Source of the DNA: a virus | IMG/VR virus record: IMGVR_UViG_3300021197_001049 | Coordinates: 1-32,192 of that record | Strand: one strand, 5' to 3' | Length of the DNA stretch: 32,192 nt | In this document: positions 14,459 to 32,192 of the stretch, one piece after another | How the letters are laid out: the number at the start of each line of letters is the position of its first letter | Numbering within the stretch: the first letter of the stretch is position 1 | The notes under the pieces: model-generated | Databases searched by the model: none | The model's input: only the letters and a program-made list of their open reading frames with translations | What the model was told of the DNA's origin: nothing | Made by a program: the position numbers and the translations under genes

Positions 14459-17400
14459 ATGCCAGAGATAAAGAATCAGTTTACCGGTGGTAAGATGAAC
14501 AAGGATGTTGACGAAAGACTTGTTCCCAAAGGTGAATATAGAGACGCGATGAACATACAAGTGTCAACTTCAGAAGGTTCTGATGTTGGTACTATTCAAA
14601 ATATACTTGGTAATTCTATAGTAGAAAATAGCAGTATAATACCATCTGGATCTATTTGTATAGGTTCTATTTCTGATGAAAAAAACGACAACTTCTATTG
14701 GTTAACAACTCAAGATAATTTTAAAAGCGCTTTTGAGGGTGGTAATCCAGATGTATATCCCGTTCAAGCAGGTAATTATCAAGGTCAAACAACCTGGGGA
14801 GCGAACTTACAAGGAATAGGCGGTGAAGATCAAACTATACTTTCTTGTAACTTCTTAACTAAAAATACTAAAAGTGGTATATACAGGTTGAAAGAAGAGA
14901 AGGTTGAGCCAGTGTTGATAGACGATGCTGATCAAATAACTACTATTTGGAGTGGTGTAGAAAACTCTACAGGTTTGTCACAGGTAGCTATAGCTGAAAG
15001 CTCTAGAGACCAAAACCTAGGCTCACCACTGGTAGTTGGAGTAGGATTTTTGACACAAGGCTTAGGTTATGATATTAGTGGAGATCCTATACACGAAATA
15101 TACGATGGAGCTAATATAAACGTTGGAGATACTTTAGAAATGTGGGGCTACAACCCTTGGGCTAAAGAAGAGCAAAACTTTCTAGCTAATTATCACGATA
15201 TTAAAGTTGTAGGTAAAAAATTAATACAGACATGGGTCGATGTTGATGGTAATACAAAAGAACACTATATAATTACTTTTAGCGAGCCAATTTACGGTTT
15301 TTGGTGGGATCAATTATTAGAAAAATTATTTTATTCAGTTGGGTGGACTTCTGGTTGGTCTATACCATTGTCTAACATAGTAACTCATTTTGTTTTTAAG
15401 TCTGGTATTTTAAATTTTTCTCCTAAAAACTTAGTAACAGGTATTAATATTGTTGACAATCTTTTGTTTTGGACAGACAATGCTAATGAGCCTAAAAAAA
15501 TAAATATAGATAGAAGTATAAAAGGTACTGACCCTAGTGGTTTGATAGCTACCACTCTTGTAAACGAAGAAACTGGAGTAACAAGTAAACTTGAAGAAAA
15601 ACATATAACTGTTATAAAGAAAGGTCCTGAATCAACTTTAGGTATGGATTTGAAAACTAGCAGAGATGATGATAAAGGTTACACTGGTGTTGTGAGAATT
15701 TGTGACACAATACAGTTGTTAGTTGATAACGAAAACTCTGACCTTTGGGACCAAAGAACAACCTCAAATACTTCTCTTCCTTATGACTTTTCCACATTTA
15801 CAACGGAAGAAGGTAAAAATATAGTTAAATTTCAAATTAGAACTGATATATCTGGGTCTTCAAACTTTAAGTTGGACGGCATGCTAGACTCTATCAACAA
15901 CCCTACTATGGTTGGTACGAAGGTTGTTTTAAAAGAGTTTACAAATGGCATTCCACCAAGTATACCTATAACCGATTATACTATAAAAGGCGTTGTAGTA
16001 GACTGGATATGGCAAGGGGATGATTCTAACGCACATGACAGTAGTTCTCCTTTTTGGGGCGCTAAAATGGCCGTTAAAATAAATAGTATATCAAGACCGC
16101 CGCTACCTGCAGACCCTATTACAGGTTTTTTAGATTACGCTGTTGACTTTTTTGATGAAACAGAAAATCTTTACGAATTTAAGTTTCCAAGGTTTTCTTA
16201 TAGGTACAAATATTTAGACGGAGAGTACTCAACTTTTGCCCCTTGGACAAGAGTTGCTTTTGTGCCTGGTGGGTTTGATTATCATCCAAAAAAAGGTTAT
16301 AACTTAGGTATGACAAACAACTTGTCTAAAGTTAACTTAAAAGGCTTTAGTACAAATGTACCAAAAGATGTTGTAGAGATTGATATATTATACAAAGAAG
16401 AAGATTCACCTAGCATATACGTTGTAGAAACGCTAAACGCTAACGCTGAAAAAACTATAGAAAAAATTACAAGTAGTGGGATTCCAGCTATGATAAATGA
16501 GTTTCAGAATAACGAGCTTGAGATATCAGAAGAAAACATCAAATCAATACTACCTTCTAACCAGTTTTTAAGACCCTGGGATAACGTTCCTAAAAAAGCT
16601 TTAGCACAAGATGTTACTGGTAGTAGAATTGTTTATGCTAACTACGAACAAAACTACGATTTAAAAAGTGGTAACTCTAAATACATACCTTCTTTTAAAA
16701 TAGCGCTTCAAGCTAATGAAACAGGTATAGCTTCAATAAAATCTTTAAGGGAATACCAATTAGGAGTTGTTTTTACAGATAAATATGGTAGAGAAACTCC
16801 TGTTGTGTCAAACTCTTCGGGTTCCTTTAAAGTTGAAAAAGCACAGTCAGTAAACAGGAATTCATTGGAGGTTGGTATAGGTAAAAAGGATATTCCTGAA
16901 AACATGGAGTATTTTAAGTTTTATATTAAAGAAACATCTGGAGAGTATTACAATATGGCTATGGATAGATATTGGGATGCTGAAGATGGCAACGTTTGGA
17001 TATCCTTCCCTTCTACAGATAGAAATAAAATAGATATTGATTCTTTTTTAATTTTAAAAAAAGGTGTAGACTCTGACGAGGGCGTTGATGAACCTGCTAG
17101 ATTTAAAGTTATAGCTATAGAAAACGAAGCTCCTGATTTTATTAAAACAAATAAAACTATAATATCATCTATAATATATGATGATAACATAGACGCTCAA
17201 AATATGTTTCACTCAGGTGCAAACGCACCTACTGAAGGTAAAAAAGATTTTTTACTAAAATATCACTGGGATGGAACTGGAGGAGATGGACCTGTTTATG
17301 CTAATACTTCAATAAAAAAGCTTCACGAAGAAAAAGGCCAAGATGGAGATATATATTTTCAGATTACAAACGGACTTGGTACTTCCTCTATAAAACCCAT

Positions 17401-20400
17401 TAGAGTTGCGGCTATAGATTTAGTTAATGTGGATGAGCATGATGCTGCCGCGGGTGAAGACTTTGAATTAGGTGCAGACTGGAAAATACAATTAGAAGAA
17501 CCATTTGACTCTACGTTAAATCAGTTTACAAACGATATATTAGGTAATAACTCAGACGAGATACTAACTCAAAGTAGAGCTATTTTTTGGAAGTATAAAA
17601 TTGAAAATTCACTAGAGTTTGATGGTAGGTTTTTTGTTAAAGTTTTTGTTGATACTATTTTTACAGAAAACATAATCAACAACACGCTATTAAATTCAGA
17701 TCAAGAGTTTAACACTGTATACCAGCAAAAAATATATTCTTTTAACAAAACTAAGCACAATGGTATAGCTTGGAATAGCCCTGGCGCAAAAGGAAACATA
17801 CTAACAGGCTCAACATCTTGGGCTGCGTCGAAAAGCAATAGTGGTAACAACCCGCAATGGGATGATTATATAGATATTACGAACTGGGTTTCTAATAACT
17901 ACGGTACTGGAATGTCAAGTACTTTTGACTGGAAAGATGAGGCTGCTTTTTTTAGAGGTATAAATATATACAAGGCAGTAGATAGTACACCAACTGGCTA
18001 TGGTAAACATGGTATAGATAAAAGAAAGGGTTTTGGAGGATTAGATTATCACGATACCGATGCTTCAAACTGGGCTTTTGAAGACGTTTGGTTTGTAGAC
18101 AATAACACCCTTCAGGCTAAGTTTGGAAGCAAGTGGGGAGTAAGTAAAAATAATACTAACATATCGCAAAGTGGAACCACAACAAGTAGTATTAACCTTT
18201 CTTTTGGAGGCTTACAGCCAAAATCTAGCTCCCAAACTTTTGCTTGGAATACAGAGTGGGATGGCGACAATGGATATAACGTATATAGTGAAGACAATAC
18301 TGTTTATGATTTTGACTCTAATGGGTATTACCAAGATAATAACGACGCTAGCGGTTTAGCAAATAGACTTGTTCCCGGTACTTATTTTAGATGGAGAGAA
18401 GATCCTTTAAAAAATGTTTACCAAATAACAAACCAAAACAGTATAAACGCTATTAGATACGAGCAGATGGAAGATGATGGTGAATCACAAAATAATATGT
18501 TGGACGGAGCTAGAGGTTATCCAAATACAAATGCTGATTTTATAGTTAATGACGTTATGTATCAAACCTCAACTTTTTATAGGCCAGAAAACTTTTCAAA
18601 AAACTACAACTTACAATTCGAAAACGTAATCAACCAAGGCGCTGGCTTTGCTTGGGATCCTTTTAGTGGTGGTGCAAATGCACCTATAACTAACGGTTTA
18701 AAACTAGTTTTAACCACAGCGGCTGCGTTTATTGCTAACAGTAACACAATGACTTTAAATTCAACAGTAGCCACCGGCTCTGTAGCTGGTAACAGCGTTG
18801 GGCTAAAAGGCTTGGAGGTTGGTATGGTATACGTGGCAGCTTCAGGTAATAACGCTATGGTCTCAAAAATAGATGGTAATACTATTTATTTTAAAAACCA
18901 CTTAGCAAATGTCAGTTGTAGTTTAGATGGTGTTTCAAGCGGTGTAGACGTGACATTTAAGCAGTACCCTATGAATGGATACAGTGTTAATTCTGCTAAA
19001 AATATTAATTGGTTTAACAATAGTTATGGTTTTGGTAACGCGTCTACTAAAATGGGTGTTGATGCTATTGGTTATACATTAGAAATAGTAGAACCAGCGT
19101 TACCAGAGGCAAAGTTCCCAAGGTTTCCAGCTGTTTGGGAGACTGAACCTAAAGAATCTACTGATTTAGATATATACTACGAGATAAGTCAAAACATACC
19201 AACTAGGATAAACGCAAACTCTGTAAGTAGGTTTTTCCCATACGCATCAGTAGGACCATATAACATACCTTCTCAATCATCGTTTGTAGTCGTTGCTGAT
19301 GACTCTTCTGTTGGAAATGGTGGTTTACTACCGGTAAACGTTGTAGCTAACATTGCTGATTTCCCAACTAGTTACGATGACGCAGGAATTACAAATCCAG
19401 CGGAGATAGTTGTAGACTTTATGGGGTCTCAAAATATTGTTGATGGAGACAAGGTTTTTATAACTCTTGAAGACGGCACTGTGTTATACTTTGAGATACT
19501 TCAGTATAACCCTAGTATAAACTACAACTCTTTACAACACTCTTCTTTTGTTTTTAAACCAGAAATACACAAAAATAGCTTCAACTTAGCTTGGCACAAT
19601 TGTTATTCTTTTGGAAATGGAGTTGAATCAAACAGAGTTAGAGACAACTACAATTTAACTTATATAAACCAAGGTGTAAAAGCGTCCTCAACTTTATCTA
19701 ACGATTATAAGAAAGAAAGAAGAAAACATGGTTTAATATTTTCAGGTTTATACAATTCTGTTAGTGGTGTCAATGATTTAAACCAATTTATACAAGCTGA
19801 AAAAATAACTAAAGATTTAAACCCTACGTATGGTAGCATACAGAAGCTTCACTCTAGAGATTCTGATTTAATAGCTCTGTGCGAAGACAAAATACTAAGA
19901 ATACTAGCCAACAAAGATGCTGTGTTTAATGCTGATGGAAACCCTCAGTTAACAGCTAACGAAAGAGTTTTAGGTCAAACTGTTCCTTTTGTTGGTGAGT
20001 ATGGTATATCAACAAACCCAGAATCATTTGCATCGGAATCTTATAGAGCTTATTTTACAGACAAGGTTAGAGGAGCTGTGATAAGACTTTCTAAAGACGG
20101 TTTAACACCTATATCTAATCATGGTATGAAAGATTATTTTAGAGATAAACTTAAAGAAAATGATACTATAATTGGTAGCTATGATGACAAAAAAGACGAA
20201 TATAATGTCACGTTGTCTGACACTACAAAAACAGTTTCGTTTAAAGAAAACGTTAAAGGTTGGGTGAGCTTTAAATCTTTTGTTCCTGAAAACGCTATTA
20301 GTTGTGCTAACGAGTACTACACTATAAAACAAGGTAAACCTTGGAGGCATCATGTTGAATTATTTGATAGCATTGGAAAGGAAACAAATAGAAATACTTT

Positions 20401-23185
20401 TTACGGTATACACAATAGTAACACTAACTCTACTTTTACAGCTGTACTTAATGACTCGCCATCAGTAGTAAAATCTTTTAAAACAATAAACTATGAAGGT
20501 AGTCAATCCAGAATACATCAATTTGTGACAGACGCGAGTACAGGGCTAACAGATGGGGAGTATTACAACTTAACCCCTAAAGATGGTTGGTATGTTGATT
20601 CTATAAAAACAGATAAAGAATCTGGATCTGTACATGAGTTTATTGAAAAAGAAGGCAAGTGGTTTAACTATATAAAAGGTAGAGATATTATTTTACAAGG
20701 GTCAAACGTTGATATAACAGCTAATGGCTCTTCTTTTGATCAATCTAGTTTTGCTATTCAAGGTTTAGGAAGGTTGCCAGCAGCTCCAGTCCCAACAAGT
20801 GTACCTGGTTGTATGGATGTTACCGCAACTAATTATAATCCTAATGCAACTACTGACGATGGTTCTTGTATTATTGGTCCCCTGCAAGTGTTTGGTTGCA
20901 TGGATCCTAACGCATCAAATTATAATGCCGCTGTTAACACAGACGACCTTTCGTGTGTTTGGTTTGGCTGTGCAGATCCACTAGCGTTTAACTACGATGC
21001 AAGTGTGTTTGTAGGTGCAAGTACTTACGTTACATATCCTGCTAACATTGTTGACGCTGGGTGTATAGCAGTTACGCTTGGTTGTACTGATAACACAGCT
21101 AGCAATTACAATCCACTAGCAAACACTGATGATGGATCGTGTATTATTATAATTACTGGGTGTTCTGTTTCTACTGCTTCTAACTACGACACTTTAGTAA
21201 ACAATGATGATGGAAGTTGTACTTGGTACGGTTGTACTAATTCGCTAGCTTCAAACTACACTTCTTTTCCTTTAGCCACAAACTACCCTGCAATTGTAGG
21301 CGCTGGAGTCATTGATGACGGAAGTTGTTTAGATGGTGGTTGTACTGATAACACTATGTATAACTACGATCCATTAGCACTTTGGGACGATGGAACTTGT
21401 CAGTCATGCGATTTCACAACTGGAAGCAGTGGCTACTCAGGAGTACCGTTTACTAGCTTAACGCTAAACACTACCGCACCTAGTCTTCTTAATGGCCAAA
21501 TAGCAATTACGCCAGATTTACAAGCACCTTATTTACCTCATACTTATCAGCTTTTAGATGGTGCTGGTAATGTTGTTTCAAACTCACCGATAGCTGGTCA
21601 AACATTAGGTGGTTTCGGTGATCCTAACAGTTTCTTGTTTGCAAATTTAGCAGCAGACACATATGTACTACAGATAACAAGTAGTAATGGGGTTTGCGTT
21701 GAGGCTTTTGTAAATATACCTATTGTTGTTGGGTCAATACCACAGCAGCTTGGCTGTACAGATGCTACAGCATGTAACTTTGACTTTCCAGCAGATGCGT
21801 TTCACGCTGATGATGGCTCTTGTGAACACACCACCTGTGCTGGATGTACTGATCCTACAGCTACTAACTATGGATTACAAATTAATAGCTCCGCAACGCC
21901 TTTACCACCTTGTACTATTGGTGGTACTGGTGTGAGTGGCCCCTGTACTATTCCTTGTGGAGATGGTAATACTTCCACTAGTTTTGCAAACTTTTGTTGT
22001 GAATACCCTGTTTTTCCTGGTTGTACAGACCCTGCTGCGATTAACTACGACGCTACTGCGACTATAGATGATGGCACATGCATCACAGCTGTATACGGTT
22101 GTACTGATGCTGCGGCAACTAATTATGATCCTTTAGCAAATAGTGATGACGGTAGTTGTAATTACCCAGCTCCAGTAGTAGGTTGTATGGACCCAACAGC
22201 TTGTAATTATAACGCACTTGCAGTTGTACCAGGACAACTTAACACTCATGACGCGTGCTTTTTTAAACACCTAAGTATAACTGTTGGGGGTACAGATCCT
22301 AATTACGGTTTAGTAGGTCCAATTTATTATCAACCTGGTGTTTTTGATCCACTACTCGCTAATACTAGTAAAAAAATTAAACACTACGTTTTAGGACCAA
22401 TTTGGCCTTTGACTTCAAACGCTCAAAGAGACATGGGTTTTTCTATGACAAAAGGTTATGGTAGTATACTTCCTTATAACACCAATGGTAATCCTGCTGC
22501 TACAAAAAATAGAATTTATTTATATAAAAAATCAGATCCAACAGACCCGCTTTCTAGCTGGACTCTTGTTGATAGTCATACAAGTATTCTAGATGCCTTC
22601 TTTACGTCAAACGGTGTTTACGGTGAAAGACAATATACTGGGATAGTTCAAGGCGCACAGGGCACAATACCTTATCCTTTTGGTGGTAATCAAACGAGTC
22701 CTAGTAATTACGAGTTTGATGTTTATTATAATAGTACTGAAAAAAATCAATATAAAATAGAGCAATACTTTTCTTCAAATGATGGAACGACTACTCAGGT
22801 TCATGGATATGGAAACGGTGCGCTAAATGGTGACGGTACAACTTGTGGTAGTAGTTATCAATTCGAAATTACTGAAGCTTCTTGTATTGACCATGTAGGC
22901 GCTGTTTTAGGTTGTACTGACGTTAACGCTTGTAATTATGATTTAAACGCAACATGTGATGATGGTTCTTGTTACTACACTACAGCTCAGTATTTCACTC
23001 CTGATCCAACTGGAACTAGTGGTTGTTTTGCGTGTGAAAACCCGGGCTCTGGATGCACTCAAGCTCTTCCTAACTGCCCAACACTTCCAAATGGAAATCT
23101 TGATTTTTGGAATCAAAATAGTAATCCTAATGGAAATATATTTACGAACGAACAGGATTGTAATGCTACTAGTGGTGCTAATTAA
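14459..23185 (+). CDS. Giant tail/stabilisation protein with C-terminal cysteine repeats and SprB-like module
   Basis: A 2,908-residue protein. The N-terminus (residues about 6-52: QFTGGKMNKDVDERLVP, GEYRDAMNIQVSTSEGSD, NILGN) and the region about 1757-1965 (GLIFSGLYNSVSG, ASESYRAYFTDKVRGAVIRL, MKDYFRDKL, IIGSYDDKKDEYN, KGWVSFKSFVPENAISCAN) look like the tail-stabilisation or tail-tubular protein of crAss-like and related Bacteroidetes podoviruses. A beta module lies at about 1428-1503. From residue 2117 to 2838 it carries 13 Cys-Asp repeats, interrupted by a SprB-like domain (about 2325-2428) and by a non-repeat domain (about 2600-2817). Those outer repeats are probably exposed and used in host binding. 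One continuous frame; no frameshift seen. It starts 3 bases after the ring gene. Confidence 0.75.
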   Translation: MPEIKNQFTGGKMNKDVDERLVPKGEYRDAMNIQVSTSEGSDVGTIQNILGNSIVENSSIIPSGSICIGSISDEKNDNFYWLTTQDNFKSAFEGGNPDVYPVQAGNYQGQTTWGANLQGIGGEDQTILSCNFLTKNTKSGIYRLKEEKVEPVLIDDADQITTIWSGVENSTGLSQVAIAESSRDQNLGSPLVVGVGFLTQGLGYDISGDPIHEIYDGANINVGDTLEMWGYNPWAKEEQNFLANYHDIKVVGKKLIQTWVDVDGNTKEHYIITFSEPIYGFWWDQLLEKLFYSVGWTSGWSIPLSNIVTHFVFKSGILNFSPKNLVTGINIVDNLLFWTDNANEPKKINIDRSIKGTDPSGLIATTLVNEETGVTSKLEEKHITVIKKGPESTLGMDLKTSRDDDKGYTGVVRICDTIQLLVDNENSDLWDQRTTSNTSLPYDFSTFTTEEGKNIVKFQIRTDISGSSNFKLDGMLDSINNPTMVGTKVVLKEFTNGIPPSIPITDYTIKGVVVDWIWQGDDSNAHDSSSPFWGAKMAVKINSISRPPLPADPITGFLDYAVDFFDETENLYEFKFPRFSYRYKYLDGEYSTFAPWTRVAFVPGGFDYHPKKGYNLGMTNNLSKVNLKGFSTNVPKDVVEIDILYKEEDSPSIYVVETLNANAEKTIEKITSSGIPAMINEFQNNELEISEENIKSILPSNQFLRPWDNVPKKALAQDVTGSRIVYANYEQNYDLKSGNSKYIPSFKIALQANETGIASIKSLREYQLGVVFTDKYGRETPVVSNSSGSFKVEKAQSVNRNSLEVGIGKKDIPENMEYFKFYIKETSGEYYNMAMDRYWDAEDGNVWISFPSTDRNKIDIDSFLILKKGVDSDEGVDEPARFKVIAIENEAPDFIKTNKTIISSIIYDDNIDAQNMFHSGANAPTEGKKDFLLKYHWDGTGGDGPVYANTSIKKLHEEKGQDGDIYFQITNGLGTSSIKPIRVAAIDLVNVDEHDAAAGEDFELGADWKIQLEEPFDSTLNQFTNDILGNNSDEILTQSRAIFWKYKIENSLEFDGRFFVKVFVDTIFTENIINNTLLNSDQEFNTVYQQKIYSFNKTKHNGIAWNSPGAKGNILTGSTSWAASKSNSGNNPQWDDYIDITNWVSNNYGTGMSSTFDWKDEAAFFRGINIYKAVDSTPTGYGKHGIDKRKGFGGLDYHDTDASNWAFEDVWFVDNNTLQAKFGSKWGVSKNNTNISQSGTTTSSINLSFGGLQPKSSSQTFAWNTEWDGDNGYNVYSEDNTVYDFDSNGYYQDNNDASGLANRLVPGTYFRWREDPLKNVYQITNQNSINAIRYEQMEDDGESQNNMLDGARGYPNTNADFIVNDVMYQTSTFYRPENFSKNYNLQFENVINQGAGFAWDPFSGGANAPITNGLKLVLTTAAAFIANSNTMTLNSTVATGSVAGNSVGLKGLEVGMVYVAASGNNAMVSKIDGNTIYFKNHLANVSCSLDGVSSGVDVTFKQYPMNGYSVNSAKNINWFNNSYGFGNASTKMGVDAIGYTLEIVEPALPEAKFPRFPAVWETEPKESTDLDIYYEISQNIPTRINANSVSRFFPYASVGPYNIPSQSSFVVVADDSSVGNGGLLPVNVVANIADFPTSYDDAGITNPAEIVVDFMGSQNIVDGDKVFITLEDGTVLYFEILQYNPSINYNSLQHSSFVFKPEIHKNSFNLAWHNCYSFGNGVESNRVRDNYNLTYINQGVKASSTLSNDYKKERRKHGLIFSGLYNSVSGVNDLNQFIQAEKITKDLNPTYGSIQKLHSRDSDLIALCEDKILRILANKDAVFNADGNPQLTANERVLGQTVPFVGEYGISTNPESFASESYRAYFTDKVRGAVIRLSKDGLTPISNHGMKDYFRDKLKENDTIIGSYDDKKDEYNVTLSDTTKTVSFKENVKGWVSFKSFVPENAISCANEYYTIKQGKPWRHHVELFDSIGKETNRNTFYGIHNSNTNSTFTAVLNDSPSVVKSFKTINYEGSQSRIHQFVTDASTGLTDGEYYNLTPKDGWYVDSIKTDKESGSVHEFIEKEGKWFNYIKGRDIILQGSNVDITANGSSFDQSSFAIQGLGRLPAAPVPTSVPGCMDVTATNYNPNATTDDGSCIIGPLQVFGCMDPNASNYNAAVNTDDLSCVWFGCADPLAFNYDASVFVGASTYVTYPANIVDAGCIAVTLGCTDNTASNYNPLANTDDGSCIIIITGCSVSTASNYDTLVNNDDGSCTWYGCTNSLASNYTSFPLATNYPAIVGAGVIDDGSCLDGGCTDNTMYNYDPLALWDDGTCQSCDFTTGSSGYSGVPFTSLTLNTTAPSLLNGQIAITPDLQAPYLPHTYQLLDGAGNVVSNSPIAGQTLGGFGDPNSFLFANLAADTYVLQITSSNGVCVEAFVNIPIVVGSIPQQLGCTDATACNFDFPADAFHADDGSCEHTTCAGCTDPTATNYGLQINSSATPLPPCTIGGTGVSGPCTIPCGDGNTSTSFANFCCEYPVFPGCTDPAAINYDATATIDDGTCITAVYGCTDAAATNYDPLANSDDGSCNYPAPVVGCMDPTACNYNALAVVPGQLNTHDACFFKHLSITVGGTDPNYGLVGPIYYQPGVFDPLLANTSKKIKHYVLGPIWPLTSNAQRDMGFSMTKGYGSILPYNTNGNPAATKNRIYLYKKSDPTDPLSSWTLVDSHTSILDAFFTSNGVYGERQYTGIVQGAQGTIPYPFGGNQTSPSNYEFDVYYNSTEKNQYKIEQYFSSNDGTTTQVHGYGNGALNGDGTTCGSSYQFEITEASCIDHVGAVLGCTDVNACNYDLNATCDDGSCYYTTAQYFTPDPTGTSGCFACENPGSGCTQALPNCPTLPNGNLDFWNQNSNPNGNIFTNEQDCNATSGAN
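20807..22972 (+). repeat. Thirteen-copy Cys-Asp repeat region within the giant tail protein
   Basis: Protein repeats, typically 21 residues, with Cys at positions 2 and 21, Asp4, Ala7, Asn9-Tyr10 and the end Asp17-Asp18-Gly19-Ser20. Starts: 20807, 20894, 20966, 21080, 21158, 21230, 21338, 21752, 21842, 22019, 22097, 22181, 22910. Copies starting at 20966, 21230, 21752, 21842 and 22181 are longer, with extra residues before the final Cys. The Asp/Asn pattern suggests calcium binding plus one disulfide per unit. The DNA copies are diverged, so this is an old protein repeat and not a recent DNA duplication. Similar repeats are common in secreted proteins of marine Bacteroidetes (from memory, not searched). 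Confidence 0.85.
21431..21742 (+). other. SprB-like beta domain inside the repeat region
   Basis: Residues about 2325-2428 of the giant tail protein, between repeats 7 and 8. The order is a strand pair (SLTLNTTAPSLLNGQIAITP), a central LPHTYQLLDGAGNVV and a closing LAADTYVLQITSSNGVCVEAF. It follows the SprB-repeat pattern of flavobacterial gliding adhesins: NG-x-I-x-[IV], then Y-T/Q-L-x-D/G, then a L-A-x-x-T-Y-x-L/V-x-[IV] strand and NG-x-C. It is a single degenerate copy; the match is by eye. Confidence 0.5.
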
Positions 23186-25358: not shown

Positions 25359-25850
25359 ATGTCTAAAAACGAGTTGCAAAAAATCTTTGACAATACGCCT
25401 GCTGAATCCTATAAAGAAAAAGTAAAAAAAATTGAAGATTATTTTATTAGTATTGCCGACGGAGAAACAGTTGTTGGTGATAATACTAAGCTGGTTTATC
25501 CAGACTTTTGGAAATACAAGCATTCGTTTGCTGATGGGATTTACATAAGAGAAATGGGTATGAAGAAAGGTCAGTTAGGGTTTTCAGCAATACATAAGCA
25601 TAGTTATGGTTTCTTTTTGCTATCAGGTGTACTAGCGTCTTCAAAAGAAGACGGTGTTGAAGAGTTTATCGCTCCATGTTATATAATATCACCTAGAGGA
25701 GCTAAAAGAATAGTTTACGCAGTAGAAGACTGTGTTATAACAACAGTACATGCAAATCCAACAAACACACAGGATTTAAAAGAAATAGAAACAGCAAACG
25801 TTGTGTTCAACTGGGATGATTACGATGAATATTTAAGATCAAAAAAATGA
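25359..25850 (+). CDS. Cupin-fold protein
   Basis: A 163-residue soluble protein with a single cupin barrel. Motif 1 is at residues about 74-90 (GFSAIHKHSYGFFLLSG), with metal ligands His79 and His81 but Phe where the usual Glu lies. Motif 2 is at about 108-133 (YIISPRGAKRIVYAVED, then TTVHAN), where the P-x-G turn is present (Pro112, Gly114), and His131 could be the remaining ligand. Cupins bind metal or small ligands; here the job could be structural or enzymatic (for example sugar or metabolite modification). It lies between tail and ejection genes, which is typical of phage-borne cupins in Bacteroidetes phages. The stop overlaps a mini ORF by ATGA. Function remains unknown. Confidence 0.7.
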   Translation: MSKNELQKIFDNTPAESYKEKVKKIEDYFISIADGETVVGDNTKLVYPDFWKYKHSFADGIYIREMGMKKGQLGFSAIHKHSYGFFLLSGVLASSKEDGVEEFIAPCYIISPRGAKRIVYAVEDCVITTVHANPTNTQDLKEIETANVVFNWDDYDEYLRSKK

Positions 25851-25879
25851 AAAAAACAATTAAAATATATAAGATATGA
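25847..25879 (+). other. Ten-codon mini ORF linking cupin and ejection genes
   Basis: ATG at 25847 opens a 10-codon frame (MKKTIKIYKI) ending TGA at 25877-25879. It shares an ATGA with the cupin stop (25848-25850) and another ATGA with the next gene's ATG (25876-25878), so both ends are positioned for translational coupling. It may simply be a re-initiation bridge; no evidence for a functional peptide. Confidence 0.3.
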
Positions 25880-26568
25880 GTTTTGGTGCGATAGGAGTAG
25901 CTGCAATAGGTGGTGCCGTTTCGTTAATAAAAAACAACGCGCAACAAAACGCGGCGGAAGGAATCTATAATGATGCTGACAAGGAGAGGGAAAAACAAGA
26001 AAAACTTTTAAAAGCTCAAAAAAGAGAATATAAAGCGTTTAATTTTACAAACCCATTTGCCAACATGGAAAACACGTTTGAAGATCTAACTGTAAACCAA
26101 CAACAAGCTAACTTTCAAGCCCAACAAGGCAACCAACAAAGATCAAACATAATGAACAGTATGAGAGGTGCTGCTGGAGGATCTGGTATTGCTGGTTTAG
26201 CACAAGCTATGGCTAACCAAGGTCAAATACAAACACAAAGAATATCTGCTTCTATAGGTCAACAAGAATCTAGAAACCAAGCTTTAGCAGCCAAAGGAGC
26301 TGCAAGCATACAGCAGTTGGAAAGACAGGGCGATGAAAAAGTGCAGAACTTTAATGCCGATAGACAAGCAACTCTTTTAGGTATGCAGATGAACGAAACA
26401 GCGGGTGCTAACGCTGCTGTTCAACAAGCTCAAGCAAACCAAATGAACGCGGATATTGCTGGACAACAAATATTTGCAGATATGATGGGTACATTCGCTT
26501 CTGGTCTCGCGTCTAACCCTGAGGCGGTGGGCGGAGAAGATAAAAATATATTTACACCTAACAAATAA
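25876..26568 (+). CDS. Internal virion/ejection protein, Gln-rich
   Basis: A 230-residue protein starting with a hydrophobic Gly-Ala segment (MSFGAIGVAAIGGAVSLI, about residues 1-18). It continues with a charged helix, then FNFTNPFANMENTFEDLTVN and a long Gln/Ala-rich helical region (QANFQAQQGNQQRSNIM, IAGLAQAMANQG, RISASIGQQESRNQALAAKG). This composition (hydrophobic start, then long Gln/Ala helix) is typical of podovirus proteins ejected into the host with the genome, such as P22 gp7 or T7 gp14 by analogy. It is followed after 3 bases by the 557-aa gene. Function inferred from composition and position. Confidence 0.65.
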   Translation: MSFGAIGVAAIGGAVSLIKNNAQQNAAEGIYNDADKEREKQEKLLKAQKREYKAFNFTNPFANMENTFEDLTVNQQQANFQAQQGNQQRSNIMNSMRGAAGGSGIAGLAQAMANQGQIQTQRISASIGQQESRNQALAAKGAASIQQLERQGDEKVQNFNADRQATLLGMQMNETAGANAAVQQAQANQMNADIAGQQIFADMMGTFASGLASNPEAVGGEDKNIFTPNK

Positions 26569-26571
26569 AAC

Positions 26572-28245
26572 ATGGCATCAGATAAAAACTTAATAAATGC
26601 ATCTAAATTACTTGCTGAATCAAAAGTAGGTGTTAATGTCCCAGACATGTCTAATCAATATAAACAGACTGTTGGTATTAATAAGGGCTATATGGATATT
26701 ATTTCTAATATTGGTAAAAATATGATGCTTGAAAGAAAAAAACTAAAAGCAGGTAAGGAAAAGCAAATTGAGCAGCTAAACAAAACTATAGAAACCAACT
26801 ATAAAAACATGTATTTAAAAGGTGCTCCTCAGTCACAAGAAGTTATATTGGCAACTAGACAAGCTATAAAAAAAATACAAGCTGAGTACGAAACGCACAA
26901 TACTTATGGCGACAATGATACTCAAGAAAACGAAATAGCTAGAGTTAGACTTGAGGCTATGGCAGCAAAAGTTATACAACAAGCAACAAACTCTAGGGAG
27001 GTTATTACTTCTATAGGCAAAAGACAAAAGCTTATAAGAACCAACGATTTAGTGGATTTAGAAAGTTCTGGTTTTATTGGGTCTCTAAACAAAATGTTAG
27101 ACATGAAAAACATGGATGCTGACGACTTGGTGACAGCGACTTATAATGATAACTACGATTTAGTAATGAGCACTATAGATGAGAACGGTGCGCCTTTGTA
27201 TTCTATGACTTTTGATGAGATTAATGATAAACTACCATCTTATGATGCTGATTTACATCAGCTGTTATTAGATGATAATAAGAATGCTGGTGTTTTGGGG
27301 GCTCAAGATGGTGATAGGGAAAACCCTGTAAATGTTTACCAAGGAGATGGTTATGTAGAGAAAAGAAAACTAAATTTTTTAAGATTAATAGATGATGAAA
27401 AATCATTTAATGACTTTGCAGGTGCTAGATTAGTTGGTAGAGACTTTAGAGAAGCTATAATGTCTGATGTGAACATAACGTTTTCTACTATTGAAACTAT
27501 GGCTGCTCAATTAAACATGGACCCTACGAAGCTATTAAAAATATTAGACGCAGATGGAAGTGGTGATATAAATTATCAAAAAGATCTTGTTTCTGCAGAA
27601 GCTAAAGAAGTTTTTAAAGAAAACTTTAACAAGATATACACTGCGATAGTAAAGCCTGGCGCAGATGGTTTTAACCTTGAAACCTCAAAGGATCTACTTG
27701 CTGATTACTACGTTGATATGGAGAAGCAAAATTACGAAGTTAATTTTAACAAGGTTATAGATGAAAAAGAAGCTAAAAGAGTTGCTGACTATAAAGCAAG
27801 CCTAGGAAATACAATGCGTGGTAATCGATTGTTAAACCCTCAGGATATGGAACTCAACTATGGTGAAAATAGTGAGTTTGAAAAATCACTTAGAGGTGAG
27901 GGCGAAGCCAAAGGTAAAGACGGAATAATAACAACACCTGCAACGCTTACGTACTTTAGAATAAATGGTGAGTTTTTTGCACTAGATGCCGAAGGAAGTT
28001 ATTCAATACCAATTTCACTTGGCGAGATAAGAGCAAGGGAAGGACAAGTTGGTAGTACTGAGAAAGAAGCAGATATAGTTGTGCGTGAAGGTACTTCTGA
28101 AGACCCTAGACCTTTCGTTAGCTATGAAGCCCTAACTAAAGATGACGTAGCTAAAATATTCTCTGGTGTGCCGGGTTGGTCAGAAGGAGTATTATTGAAA
28201 TGGAATGGAAAGCAAATGATTGAGGTTAATAAAAAGAAAAAATAG
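26572..28245 (+). CDS. Internal virion protein, unknown function, with EF-hand-like loop
   Basis: A 557-residue, mainly helical, highly charged protein in the ejection gene cluster. Residues about 50-170 are predicted long helices (MMLERKKLKAGKEKQIEQLN, ARVRLEAMAAKVIQQATN). A short Asp-rich loop at residues 326-338 (DADGSGDINYQKD) resembles a calcium-binding EF-hand loop, except that position 12 is Lys rather than Glu. A C-terminal beta segment follows (TYFRINGEFFALDAEGSYSI). No membrane segment or signal peptide. By place and composition it is likely to be packaged in the virion and ejected. No named family recognised. The next gene starts 6 bases after its stop. Confidence 0.65.
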   Translation: MASDKNLINASKLLAESKVGVNVPDMSNQYKQTVGINKGYMDIISNIGKNMMLERKKLKAGKEKQIEQLNKTIETNYKNMYLKGAPQSQEVILATRQAIKKIQAEYETHNTYGDNDTQENEIARVRLEAMAAKVIQQATNSREVITSIGKRQKLIRTNDLVDLESSGFIGSLNKMLDMKNMDADDLVTATYNDNYDLVMSTIDENGAPLYSMTFDEINDKLPSYDADLHQLLLDDNKNAGVLGAQDGDRENPVNVYQGDGYVEKRKLNFLRLIDDEKSFNDFAGARLVGRDFREAIMSDVNITFSTIETMAAQLNMDPTKLLKILDADGSGDINYQKDLVSAEAKEVFKENFNKIYTAIVKPGADGFNLETSKDLLADYYVDMEKQNYEVNFNKVIDEKEAKRVADYKASLGNTMRGNRLLNPQDMELNYGENSEFEKSLRGEGEAKGKDGIITTPATLTYFRINGEFFALDAEGSYSIPISLGEIRAREGQVGSTEKEADIVVREGTSEDPRPFVSYEALTKDDVAKIFSGVPGWSEGVLLKWNGKQMIEVNKKKK

Positions 28246-28251
28246 TTCTAA

Positions 28252-31200
28252 ATGGAAAGATTCTTATACGAAGGTAAAACATATAGTGTCTCTTCAGGGT
28301 ATGCTGTTGAGTGGTTGGAAAAACATCCTGGTGCTATAAAAATATCTGCGCAAGCCAAATCTAAACCACAAAGACAAACAAGCTGGTGGAGAGGTGAAGA
28401 AGGTTGGCTTCCAGATGAGTTTCAAGCTGGCGTGCAGAGAAGTAATATAGATTTAGACACTAGCATTAAAGATAAGAATTATACAGATCAAACTGGTATT
28501 TTAAAACAAAACGCTAGTCTTTTTAGTCCTAAAGAAAAAAGCTTTGTAGATAACACTTTGGACTGGTGGCGTATAGACGCTAACGAAACTCAAGAAAAAA
28601 ATACTTTTGTTGAAGACTGGTTTGGTAAAAACCAACTTACAGATTTACTTGGAGATCAAGGTAGAATTGTTGAGAACAGTTGGAATGGATCAAAAGATAT
28701 ACAAGAATTTTTAGAAGTATACGGAAAAGATAAAGCTAGTGATTTGACAGAGGACGAGATGGCTAAGCTTTTTTTAGCTATGGAAGAACAGTCAAAAACT
28801 GGTGTTTCTGATGAAATGCTAGAGTTTACTAGAAAATTAAATAGAGATGAAAACAGTAAAACATTTAACTGGATAGACTCTTTAACAGATGGAACTTTAG
28901 CTGAAAATCCTACTTTAGCGTGGGAAGTTGCGGTATCTTCTTTTTTAGGAATGGGTACTGCACTTTGGAACAGCGAAGACGTTAGAGCTTACACGGCTAA
29001 AACTACTTTAGCAACCACTTTAGCTGGTGGAGCGATTGGTACTGCAGCTGGCTCTGTTATCCCAGGGTTGGGAAATGTTGCTGGTGGAGTTATTGGATTA
29101 AAAAGAGGTTTTTTCTCAGGTATATTCAGTGGTGTTGGTGGTTCTATAGAAACAGCAAACACTTTTGGAGAGCAGTTACGAAAGGAACTCAAAGATGCTA
29201 ACTTAGAGTGGAACGAAGAGAACGTTAAAAAGATTTTAAAAGACGAAGAAACCTTCAAAAGAATAAAACATAAAGCTTTTACAAAAGGAGCTACTGTTCA
29301 AGGTATCGACATGATAGCAAATGCTATCGCGCCTGGAATTGGTAGGCTTGGAGGTAAGGTAGTCAAAGGTTTAGGCAAGTCAACATCTACTGCTAACAGA
29401 ATCGCTGGTGCTAGTGCTGCTACTGTTGACATGGCTGGTGGTGCTGGAGGTGAGTACTTAAGTCAAAGAGCAATTGGAGAGCAAGCAACAGGCAAATCAC
29501 TTATACTTGAAGCTGTTGGTGAAATTGGTACGTCTGGACCTGCTAGTATAATTCAAGCTATAAGAAACCCAAAGAAGTATAGTTTAAACGGTAAGGACGC
29601 GTCCAAAGAAGATGTTAAATCATTTTTAAATGACGCAAACATTACAGACGAAGAGCTTATGAGTGCTGATGTGGATATACAAAATGACGTAGATTTACAA
29701 GAGCTTCTTCAAGAGCGGGAGCAAAACGCTATTATAAAAGCTCAAATTGATCCTAGAGTAAACGAGCAGGCTGATATTGATAAGATAATAGATTTACAAA
29801 AAAAATACAATAAGGTTAAAGGTGGTAAAACAGAGTCAGCTAAAAATCAGGCTTCTGAAATAAAACAACAGATAAAAGATATAGAAAACCAATACAAACC
29901 AGAAGGCGAGAAGTTTAGCTCTACATCAACTCCAGACGCTATAAAAAAACTAGAGTCTAATAAAAAAGTTATAGGCGTTTATGCTGAAAAAGTTTTTAAA
30001 GCTAAGTTAGATTTTGCTAAAAAGCATAGTAAACTCTACAATATGACTCTAGACGATAATATGTCTAAAGAACAAATAATAGCTAAATATGGAAAGGCAG
30101 CTGGAGAGTCTAACGGATTTGTAGACCCTAAGACTAATACTATAATTATAAATACTGATGTCGCTAAGACAAAGGGTATAGAAGGAGGTAATGTTGGTAA
30201 TCACGAGCTATTACACGGTATAATAAAAGCTAGTAATATTGAAATAAAACAAGAAACTATTAATTCTTTTTTAAAAAATATAGGTTCTGCTAATGCTGCT
30301 GTTATTCAAAAAAGAATAGACGAAAACCAAGACGTGTACACGGAACAGTATATGAATGACAATCGAGACGAGTACTTTACTATTTTTTCTGATGCTATAG
30401 AAAACGGAGATATAAAGTTTGACGAGGGCGTTTTTACTCTAGTTAAGGATTCTATTAGAAGACTATTTGCTCAGTTAGGTTATTCAAACGTTAATTTTGA
30501 CAATGCTGAAAGCGCTTATAATTTTTTAAAGGATTACAATAGAAGTATTCACAAAGGGGCTTTAAGCCGAGGCGCAATAAAAGCAACAAAAGGTGATGCT
30601 AATTTTAGCAATACAGTGTCTTCACAATCAAAATCTCAAGCTGCTGAATCTGTAAACGAAATAGAACAAGGTTTAAAAGATAAATTAAAAGCAGATAACC
30701 AAGAATACACTAAAGATCAGTTTTTATATAGCGAAGAATTTGATGATATATATAGATCTATAAAAGAAAGTAATGGAGCTATAAACAACTACATTTTAAG
30801 TCTTGGCTTAGGAGATAAAAAAACAAAAAAAGTTATACAATACGCTTCTGATAGATTAAAAGGTTATAACCCACAAGAAAAAAGAAAAACTGATAGCAAA
30901 GAAGCTGTAACAGTTGGCGAACGTGTTATGTCTGATATAATGTATGCTAAATTAGACGCAGATAAATCTTTAGCTATAGAAAGTAAAAAAGAAGGTAAAA
31001 CACTAAGGATAGACGCCGCTAAACGAACTCAAGAAGGTGAATCAACCTTTGACCTAGAAGACACTGGGGTTGATGCTAGGTTAGAGGCTCTTGAAACAGA
31101 AAACCTGTCTCCAGCTGCTCGTGCGAAAAAGAGAGCTGATAAAGCTAAAGGAAAACAAGTAAAAGAATCTGAGTTTAGAAACAAAGTTGGTTTCAAAACT

Positions 31201-32192
31201 GGTAGTAAAATATACAACGAAATTATTGATGCAGCTAAAAAAAGTTTAATAAGAGCTTATGGAAAAACATTAAACATTAAAGGTGTAGCAGCTAGAGAAA
31301 GAGCTGTAGTTGCAGAAATACAAAAAGAACACAACAGTCTTACTAGTCCTTTGTTTAAACAAATAAAAAACTGGTTGTCATACGGTTTAGCCCAAGAGTT
31401 TGTACCACAGTCCCTTAGGAAAGACATTTATTTTTCAAATTTGAAGGAGTTTAGAGAAGAAATAACAAAACTCGTGTCAACTGCTGATTTAGTTCAAGTA
31501 GAAAGAATGGTTAGTGAGGTTGATAGAATTTTTACTATTTATAAAGAAACTCTTACTAGAAAGGGTGATGTGGAAAAAGCAGTGGATAATCTTGAGTTAC
31601 CTCCAGACGCTATAAGAAAATATGATAAAGATAAAAAAGTAAGTGTATACGATAAGACTATACCTAGTGAAACTCAAATTGTAGCCTTTGCTAATCAACC
31701 AGCGAAAATACCAGCTAGAGACAAAAGTGGTAACGTAATGAGAAACCCAGATACTGGAGATGTTATGATGGTTAGAAGCGGGTTAAAAGGAACTAGAAAA
31801 GACGGTATAACTAAAAACATAGTTAACGGTTTAGTTTTTGACGCGGCAATGGAAGCTAGACAAAGTAAAGAAGTTCAAGATAAATTAAAACAACTTGATG
31901 TAGATGTTACAAGTGTGCAAGAGTTGAGCGCGGCGACGGGTAGACCAGTTGATCTTAAGTTTTCAAAATCAGTTGTTATTGATGAAAAAACTTTTAGTGA
32001 AGAAAGACTACAAGATATGTTTAATAAAGAAATTAAACATACTTCTTTAATGGGTGATAATCAAAAACAAAAATCAATTAAATTTATCGATAGTACTATA
32101 AGAAATCTAGATCCAGTTGTATATAGCACTGTTGTTTACCAACTTGAAGTTTTAAAAGAGCAAATATCAAAAGACCTTACTATTAAAGAGAT
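28252..32192 (+). CDS. Giant ejection-type protein with zincin site (3' end outside window)
   Basis: The frame is open from ATG 28252 to the window end (at least 1,313 codons), so the gene is truncated by the window. Residues 1-245 are charged and helical, with YSVSSGYAVEWLEKHPG near the start. Residues about 249-295 form a Gly/Ala-rich hydrophobic stretch (TLATTLAGGAIGTAAGSV, LGNVAGGVIGL) that could enter a membrane. Residues about 310-440 hold further Gly-rich segments. A zincin-type peptidase site follows: a strand (NTIIINTDV), HELLH at 651-655 and, 52 residues on, EYFTIFSDAIENG with Glu707 as the candidate third ligand. The rest is Lys/Glu-rich helix. This fits a virion-packaged protein injected with DNA; in crAss-like phages very large injected proteins occupy this region. 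The protease call is by motif. Confidence 0.7.
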   Translation, partial: MERFLYEGKTYSVSSGYAVEWLEKHPGAIKISAQAKSKPQRQTSWWRGEEGWLPDEFQAGVQRSNIDLDTSIKDKNYTDQTGILKQNASLFSPKEKSFVDNTLDWWRIDANETQEKNTFVEDWFGKNQLTDLLGDQGRIVENSWNGSKDIQEFLEVYGKDKASDLTEDEMAKLFLAMEEQSKTGVSDEMLEFTRKLNRDENSKTFNWIDSLTDGTLAENPTLAWEVAVSSFLGMGTALWNSEDVRAYTAKTTLATTLAGGAIGTAAGSVIPGLGNVAGGVIGLKRGFFSGIFSGVGGSIETANTFGEQLRKELKDANLEWNEENVKKILKDEETFKRIKHKAFTKGATVQGIDMIANAIAPGIGRLGGKVVKGLGKSTSTANRIAGASAATVDMAGGAGGEYLSQRAIGEQATGKSLILEAVGEIGTSGPASIIQAIRNPKKYSLNGKDASKEDVKSFLNDANITDEELMSADVDIQNDVDLQELLQEREQNAIIKAQIDPRVNEQADIDKIIDLQKKYNKVKGGKTESAKNQASEIKQQIKDIENQYKPEGEKFSSTSTPDAIKKLESNKKVIGVYAEKVFKAKLDFAKKHSKLYNMTLDDNMSKEQIIAKYGKAAGESNGFVDPKTNTIIINTDVAKTKGIEGGNVGNHELLHGIIKASNIEIKQETINSFLKNIGSANAAVIQKRIDENQDVYTEQYMNDNRDEYFTIFSDAIENGDIKFDEGVFTLVKDSIRRLFAQLGYSNVNFDNAESAYNFLKDYNRSIHKGALSRGAIKATKGDANFSNTVSSQSKSQAAESVNEIEQGLKDKLKADNQEYTKDQFLYSEEFDDIYRSIKESNGAINNYILSLGLGDKKTKKVIQYASDRLKGYNPQEKRKTDSKEAVTVGERVMSDIMYAKLDADKSLAIESKKEGKTLRIDAAKRTQEGESTFDLEDTGVDARLEALETENLSPAARAKKRADKAKGKQVKESEFRNKVGFKTGSKIYNEIIDAAKKSLIRAYGKTLNIKGVAARERAVVAEIQKEHNSLTSPLFKQIKNWLSYGLAQEFVPQSLRKDIYFSNLKEFREEITKLVSTADLVQVERMVSEVDRIFTIYKETLTRKGDVEKAVDNLELPPDAIRKYDKDKKVSVYDKTIPSETQIVAFANQPAKIPARDKSGNVMRNPDTGDVMMVRSGLKGTRKDGITKNIVNGLVFDAAMEARQSKEVQDKLKQLDVDVTSVQELSAATGRPVDLKFSKSVVIDEKTFSEERLQDMFNKEIKHTSLMGDNQKQKSIKFIDSTIRNLDPVVYSTVVYQLEVLKEQISKDLTIKE

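Follow-up and report, generated by a model that had tools for sequence, protein, structure and literature searches.

The window analysed here is the whole 32,192-base stretch of one IMG/VR virus record, whose terminase and capsid genes match those of flavobacterial podoviruses, namely the elemo phages, Cellulophaga phages, Maribacter phage Panino and the uncultured ctfjg026. Its final open reading frame encodes a giant polyvalent-type protein that carries a candidate zinc-metallopeptidase (zincin) domain, and a small zincin-like gene lies near the start of the window (Table 1). The 1313 aa of the giant are a lower bound because the frame runs off the contig end, and in the closest clade of related loci (L100-L118) complete giant frames measure 2138-2514 aa. 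The structural module upstream of it also includes a 2908-aa protein (14459-23185, plus strand) with many Cys repeats of the type GCTDxxAxNYnpxAnxDDGSC near its C-terminus, and a 163-aa protein that looks cupin-like by eye (25359-25850, plus strand) is located between the tail-region and the ejection genes.

Table 1. Position of the genes and protein features considered in this work, in window coordinates.
Feature	Position	Strand	Remarks
Small zincin-like gene, 143 aa	634..1065	+	HEMRH, then W131-E132
230-aa small ejection-type protein	25876..26568	+	Homologous to phi40:1 gp99 and elemoF gp20
557-aa protein	26572..28245	+	Directly upstream of the giant; by position only, a putative fast-evolving medium ejection protein
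Giant polyvalent-type protein	28252..32190	+	Final window ORF; at least 1313 aa, open at contig end
N-terminal region of the giant, residues 113-551	28588..29904	+	Matches phrog_32588, E 3.1e-32
Zincin domain, residues 575-790	29974..30621	+	Alignment A1 and predicted model
Edge strand NTIIINTDV, residues 629-637	30136..30162	+	Strand in the model, 630-633
HELLH, residues 651-655	30202..30216	+	Inside predicted helix 648-660
Glu707, putative third zinc ligand	30370..30372	+	First residue of predicted helix 707-717; 45 of 45 rows

At the level of gene order, the window shows a 230-aa frame, a 557-aa frame and then the giant, the same small-medium-giant succession that is seen in related loci, since nearly all of the 39 loci L100-L138 display a frame of ~200-400 aa followed by one of ~380-650 aa and by the giant. 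The same order is found in Cellulophaga phage phi40:1 (Callevirus), where gp99-gp101 measure 200, 549 and 1691 aa and the record notes MS/MS virion evidence for all three. The 230-aa family matches phi40:1 gp99 (hmmsearch, E 6.4e-9), elemoF gp20 (8.6e-9) and phi19:3 gp126 (2.9e-6); no homology was detectable between the medium protein and phi40:1 gp100 or N4 gp51, and phi40:1 gp101, unlike the window giant, lacks HExxH, with similarity between these two giants being undetectable. The late-module position that the first-pass annotation had assigned to the giant thus agrees with that of virion proteins recorded by MS/MS. As the final product of the structural module, with a small neighbour that is a gp99 homologue, the giant is very probably a virion protein carried in the particle, and gene order and neighbour homology suggest that it is probably delivered into the bacterium together with the DNA. 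The presence of the zincin in an ejection-protein module would fit an enzyme that breaches the wall or envelope of the cell to let the DNA through, acting as an amidase or endopeptidase on peptidoglycan or on envelope proteins, and wall-opening enzymes are borne by T7-type and other ejection proteins. Nevertheless, we consider this role highly improbable, given that searches of the giant and of its close relatives L102 and L126 revealed no lytic or peptidoglycan-binding domain, and that HExxH zincins are not known as the usual fold of wall hydrolases.

Searches by tblastn against 50,697 phage records returned no match for the giant, the 557-aa neighbour or the 230-aa neighbour, and a first scan of viral contigs with the whole giant as query recovered no relative. 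Scanning viral contigs with six peptide patterns from residues 584-783, all of them free of HELLH and of the DEYFT stretch bearing Glu707, yielded 44 loci related to the window giant, which are designated by L numbers. A prophage or host-gene origin of the giant was found to be unsupported, the collection of bacterial and archaeal genomes contributing a single MAG contig. This relative (L242, contig NZMJ01000172.1, labelled Maricaulis), the only one there, is probably phage DNA binned with the MAG.

It had been proposed that the strand NTIIINTDV, HELLH and Glu707 make up a complete candidate metallopeptidase core, and the residue numbers given for the three elements are all correct in the translated frame. 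The alignment of the window with the 44 loci (A1) upholds this proposal, as all elements are present and every one of the 45 rows has H651, E652, L654, H655 and E707, in an alignment where row identity to the window zincin falls as low as 18%. Each row was anchored on its own HExxH, so that the identity of H, E and H is partly there by construction; the anchoring does not explain the identity of Glu707 or the presence of the motif in the open frames of all 44 loci. A chance origin of HExxH in the giant is ruled out by shuffling, the motif being expected 0.004 times for the composition of the protein and present in 20 of 5000 shuffles. The arrangement that characterizes gluzincins, HExxH plus a downstream Glu as third ligand, is found in all 45 rows. 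None of the Pfam, NCBIfam and named PHROG families covers the domain; its best PHROG is phrog_1233, of unknown function (E 2.9e-4), and PF07737 (peptidase family M34) matches two of the 45 members, with a best E of 0.027. When the zincin profile was compared with the sequences of solved structures, it gave sub-threshold rows from non-zincin proteins only.

The predicted model of residues 575-790 (mean pLDDT 82.8, pTM 0.78) contains strands at 599-601, 622-625 and 630-633 and follows the order of elements of a zincin: an N-terminal helix, strands, the HExxH helix and the Glu-bearing helix. The structure prediction that had been suggested as a check on the proposed core therefore places HELLH within a helix and Glu707 at the opening of a later one. 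In VIA-align the leading rows are chiefly zincins. A family M34 toxin comes first through its catalytic domain (Z 6.0, 147 residues, 4.4 A), and PPEP-3 (Z 4.8), IrrE (4.1), minigluzincins of the selecase type and clostridial collagenases are further rows; every Z is at most 6.0, a range that the tool calls common, some rows align to the non-catalytic domain of the same M34 toxin, and transcription regulators are intermixed lower. Foldseek found no match for this model in the PDB at E <= 0.001. Lethal factor was also reached by Iyer et al. in a profile search that started from the N4 domain, according to the accessible text of their paper (PMC5512222). Taking alignment and model together, residues ~575-790 of the giant look like an intact zincin-protease domain, which would bind zinc and be active.

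As regards the 143-aa product encoded near the start of the window, the residues of HEMRH and W131-E132 are invariant in the best 80 of 418 related loci, two of the six scan patterns used for this frame overlapping them. The protein shows weak, sub-cut-off Pfam matches to M91 and lipoprotein models, and tblastn against the 50,697 phage records gave no match. When both window zincins were compared by hhalign, 41 columns only could be aligned (probability 51%), and from their profiles the two are different families, in agreement with the previous opinion that they are not recent duplicates. Their occurrence in one late module had also been deemed notable; both are present and unrelated, but Iyer et al. 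(2017, PMC5512222) find no domain more widespread than zincin peptidases in the polyvalent proteins of phages and plasmids, which takes much of the surprise away from finding two.

Judged by homology, the giant is a mosaic in which separate parts resemble different phage giants. Its N-terminal part, which by hydropathy contains weakly hydrophobic Gly/Ala-rich stretches at residues 252-283, shares homology with the corresponding end of the ctfjg026 giant (E 9e-21). The zincin has a homologue in elemoF gp18 (E 1.4e-9), and in complete relatives of the giant the C-terminal part is homologous to Gundel gp74, a product annotated as structural (E 1.5e-10). Between the zincin and the C-terminal domain, 24 of the 44 frames display a HAD-like motif (DFDDTL/DFDETL) with sub-cut-off Pfam support, located at residues ~1400-1550 in L102 and at the counterparts of these in the others; the window copy ends before this position. 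The C-terminal domain of the relatives has a mean column identity of 47% over 26 sequences (L119, L139-L143 and loci with incomplete frames are omitted from C-terminal comparisons, and the near copies L127 and L131 from alignment A2 as well). In L102, the last 700 residues (L102:11460-13559) are predicted to be all-helical (pLDDT 74.4), and in BFVD this model finds four close homologues plus many phage giants, some of them annotated as large polyvalent or ART-PolyVal proteins (for instance, E 1.5e-8 and TMq 0.52, for a region outside the window). Foldseek with the same model against the PDB gave no match at E <= 0.001, and the Pfam LPD models do not match the close relatives L102 and L126. L139 and L141, whose zincins are the most remote, are proteins with LPD39 and DarB-like matches; as both belong to A1, their matches to its profile are self-matches and were left uncounted.

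These relatives place the giant, in kind, among the phage-type polyvalent proteins, as far as homology and predicted structure go, and the window protein is itself a very large multidomain product encoded beside late genes. The likeness extends to the metallopeptidase (MPTase) of polyvalent proteins defined by Iyer, Burroughs and Aravind (2017, PMC5512222), which they divide into 12 clades and which has an HExxH helix with a Glu on the next helix and a three-strand core with an N-terminal helix, and sits in giant multidomain proteins beside late genes; moreover, the predicted C-terminal fold of the window relatives is common to annotated polyvalent proteins. Protein-cutting domains of this general kind are therefore already known in such giants. 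A search of open-licence papers found no earlier description of the window-type zincin domain in these phages and, in the portions of those papers that were accessible, no mention of elemo phages or of the phi38:1 giant.

Among named systems, the C1 domain of the N4 virion RNA polymerase (vRNAP) gp50 offers a parallel in organization. Its giant gene comes after two smaller ejection-protein genes, in an order (gp52-gp51-gp50) that equals the small-medium-giant order of the window, and in both cases an HExxH domain is followed by a large helical domain. According to Iyer et al. (PMC5512222), a zincin is fused to every N4-like virion RNA polymerase. The window zincin profile scored 40.2 by hhalign against the gp50 core, compared with a maximum of 17.2 in 20 column shuffles, in a match that spans 62 columns only with a probability of 62%, falling to 22% once the distant rows L139-L143 are removed; the profile of the C-terminal half does not match gp50. 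Unlike gp50, no RNA polymerase match (phrog_2206, Pfam) was obtained in the incomplete window protein, L102 or L126. An RNA polymerase identity of the giant was considered, given that four of the 45 zincin members, L139 included, match phrog_2206, and was dropped, as those matches are confined to the zincin region and no polymerase family turned up in complete relatives.

Closer to the window, the cultured Flavobacterium phage elemoF (Elemovirus), with Flavobacterium sp. BAL314 as its laboratory strain, ends its structural genes with gp18, a 3694-aa product annotated as 'structural protein' that carries its zincin at residues 1509-1644. Its N- and C-terminal parts, in contrast, have no detectable homology to the window giant and its relatives. 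HExxH was also looked for in the giants of phi40:1, phi19:3 and Panino and is absent in all three, which indicates that the wider group can dispense with the zincin. The Panino giant (L003:18229-23718), an 1829-aa protein that closes the structural module, matches a methyltransferase family at residues 381-599 (phrog_4752, E 1.7e-16), and its annotation as 'tRNA methyltransferase' fits just this part of it. The ctfjg026 frame at L001:741-12320, annotated 'reticulocyte binding/rhoptry protein', has two HExxH sites of other zincin types (1615 and 2500).

The constancy of the zincin was assessed in a sample chosen independently of it, consisting of 32 records recruited through the capsid protein from 80 kept loci, mainly longer ones. 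The small gene is seen in 29 of the 32 and the zincin profile matches 15. Among the 17 records without a profile match, nine have sequence past the small gene and were examined (the other eight end early or have no small gene); seven of these nine giants contain exactly one HExxH, and the remaining two break off at 912 and 1108 aa. Over the 24 records of this sample that extend beyond the small gene, 15 have a window-type zincin, seven a more divergent HExxH, and two end early. In those seven giants, where the zincin has diverged beyond the reach of the record search, sequence resembling the window clade starts after the zincin, 116-167 residues past HExxH in L153, L154, L156, L158 and L161 and ~280 residues past it in L155 and L157; searched alone, L155 does match the zincin profile (E 5.5e-7). 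On alignment of the seven divergent zincins with four of the first type, H, E, H and a later Glu appear in 11 of 11 rows, although the seven are 12-17% identical to the window and the assignment of their Glu depends on the alignment.

Pairwise comparisons point in the same direction. L102 and L103 share 60% identity in the C-terminal part and 57% in the zincin. In the pair L102/L156 the C-terminal identity is again 60%, with 24% in the zincin, and the corresponding values are 67% and 21% for L138/L153 and 67% and 26% for L154/L158; the background given by shuffled zincins has a mean of 21.7% and a maximum of 29%. At equal C-terminal relatedness, therefore, zincin identity is either close or at background. 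The zincin slot of the giant thus looks obligatory yet exchangeable, and the simplest reading of the sequences is that N-terminal modules ending in a zincin may be replaced as units; alternatively, the background identity would reflect very fast divergence instead of module replacement. A further reading, less likely than not, is that this marine phage group swaps unrelated zincin-ended N-terminal modules before a conserved C-terminal half of ~1500 residues; the zincin would then be a self-releasing joint in a delivery chassis whose cargo can be exchanged.

Regarding function, it seems about as probable as a coin toss that residues ~575-790 form an intact gluzincin within a giant, virion-packaged polyvalent protein, where it would most likely process the giant itself. 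Under this proposal, a marine flavophage-like podovirus would package the giant in its virion, with the zincin at the junction of a variable N-terminal and a conserved C-terminal half. The two His of HELLH and Glu707 would bind zinc, Glu652 would serve as general base, and the enzyme would cut either its own chain or that of an adjacent copy of the giant, at the time of packaging or once inside the cell, so that the parts could be released to their own work sites. This role is favored because of the fixed place of the domain at a module boundary, the apparent need for some zincin and the precedent suggested by P1 DdrB, whose processing is taken as a clue by Iyer et al. in proposing, in the text available, that zincins process multidomain polypeptides (PMC5512222). 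Processing by a zincin is not needed in the wider group, given the giants of phi40:1, phi19:3 and Panino that lack HExxH. In addition, the zincin-bearing N4 vRNAP is packaged unprocessed (PMC5512222, accessible text), implying that processing before packaging is not general and that cutting after entry is at least as likely; the available part of a cryo-EM preprint on the N4 vRNAP reports just the HExxH motif for the zincin domain.

The N4 case also bears on a mainly structural role, in packaging or in folding during passage with little or no proteolysis, as encapsidation of the N4 protein depends on the region that contains the zincin, and the protein is left uncut (PMC5512222). Such a role is unlikely for the window domain, because it leaves unexplained the strict conservation of the two His, Glu652 and Glu707 in sequences that otherwise retain just 12-17% identity. 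Somewhat stronger, and still doubtful, is the possibility raised in the first-pass annotation, that an ejected zincin would cut host proteins in trans, such as those of defence, the envelope or transcription. Changing host targets would fit both the exchangeable slot and the near-background divergence outside the active site, enzyme-like parts such as the HAD-type motif lie downstream in the window clade, and polyvalent proteins have been proposed as carriers of conflict effectors in the accessible text of Iyer et al. (PMC5512222). However, a host-directed enzyme would not need a single fixed place beside the conserved C-terminal half, and no homologous toxin-type Pfam family reaches cut-off in the window domain.

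Self-processing is the reading favored here. Giant multi-enzyme proteins injected by phages are widespread, and the role of the recurrent zincin in them has, in the literature accessible here, remained a prediction since 2017. The many relatives with a fixed active site and a varied remainder, together with a cultured phage, elemoF, that bears a homologous zincin, make the self-processing idea directly testable.
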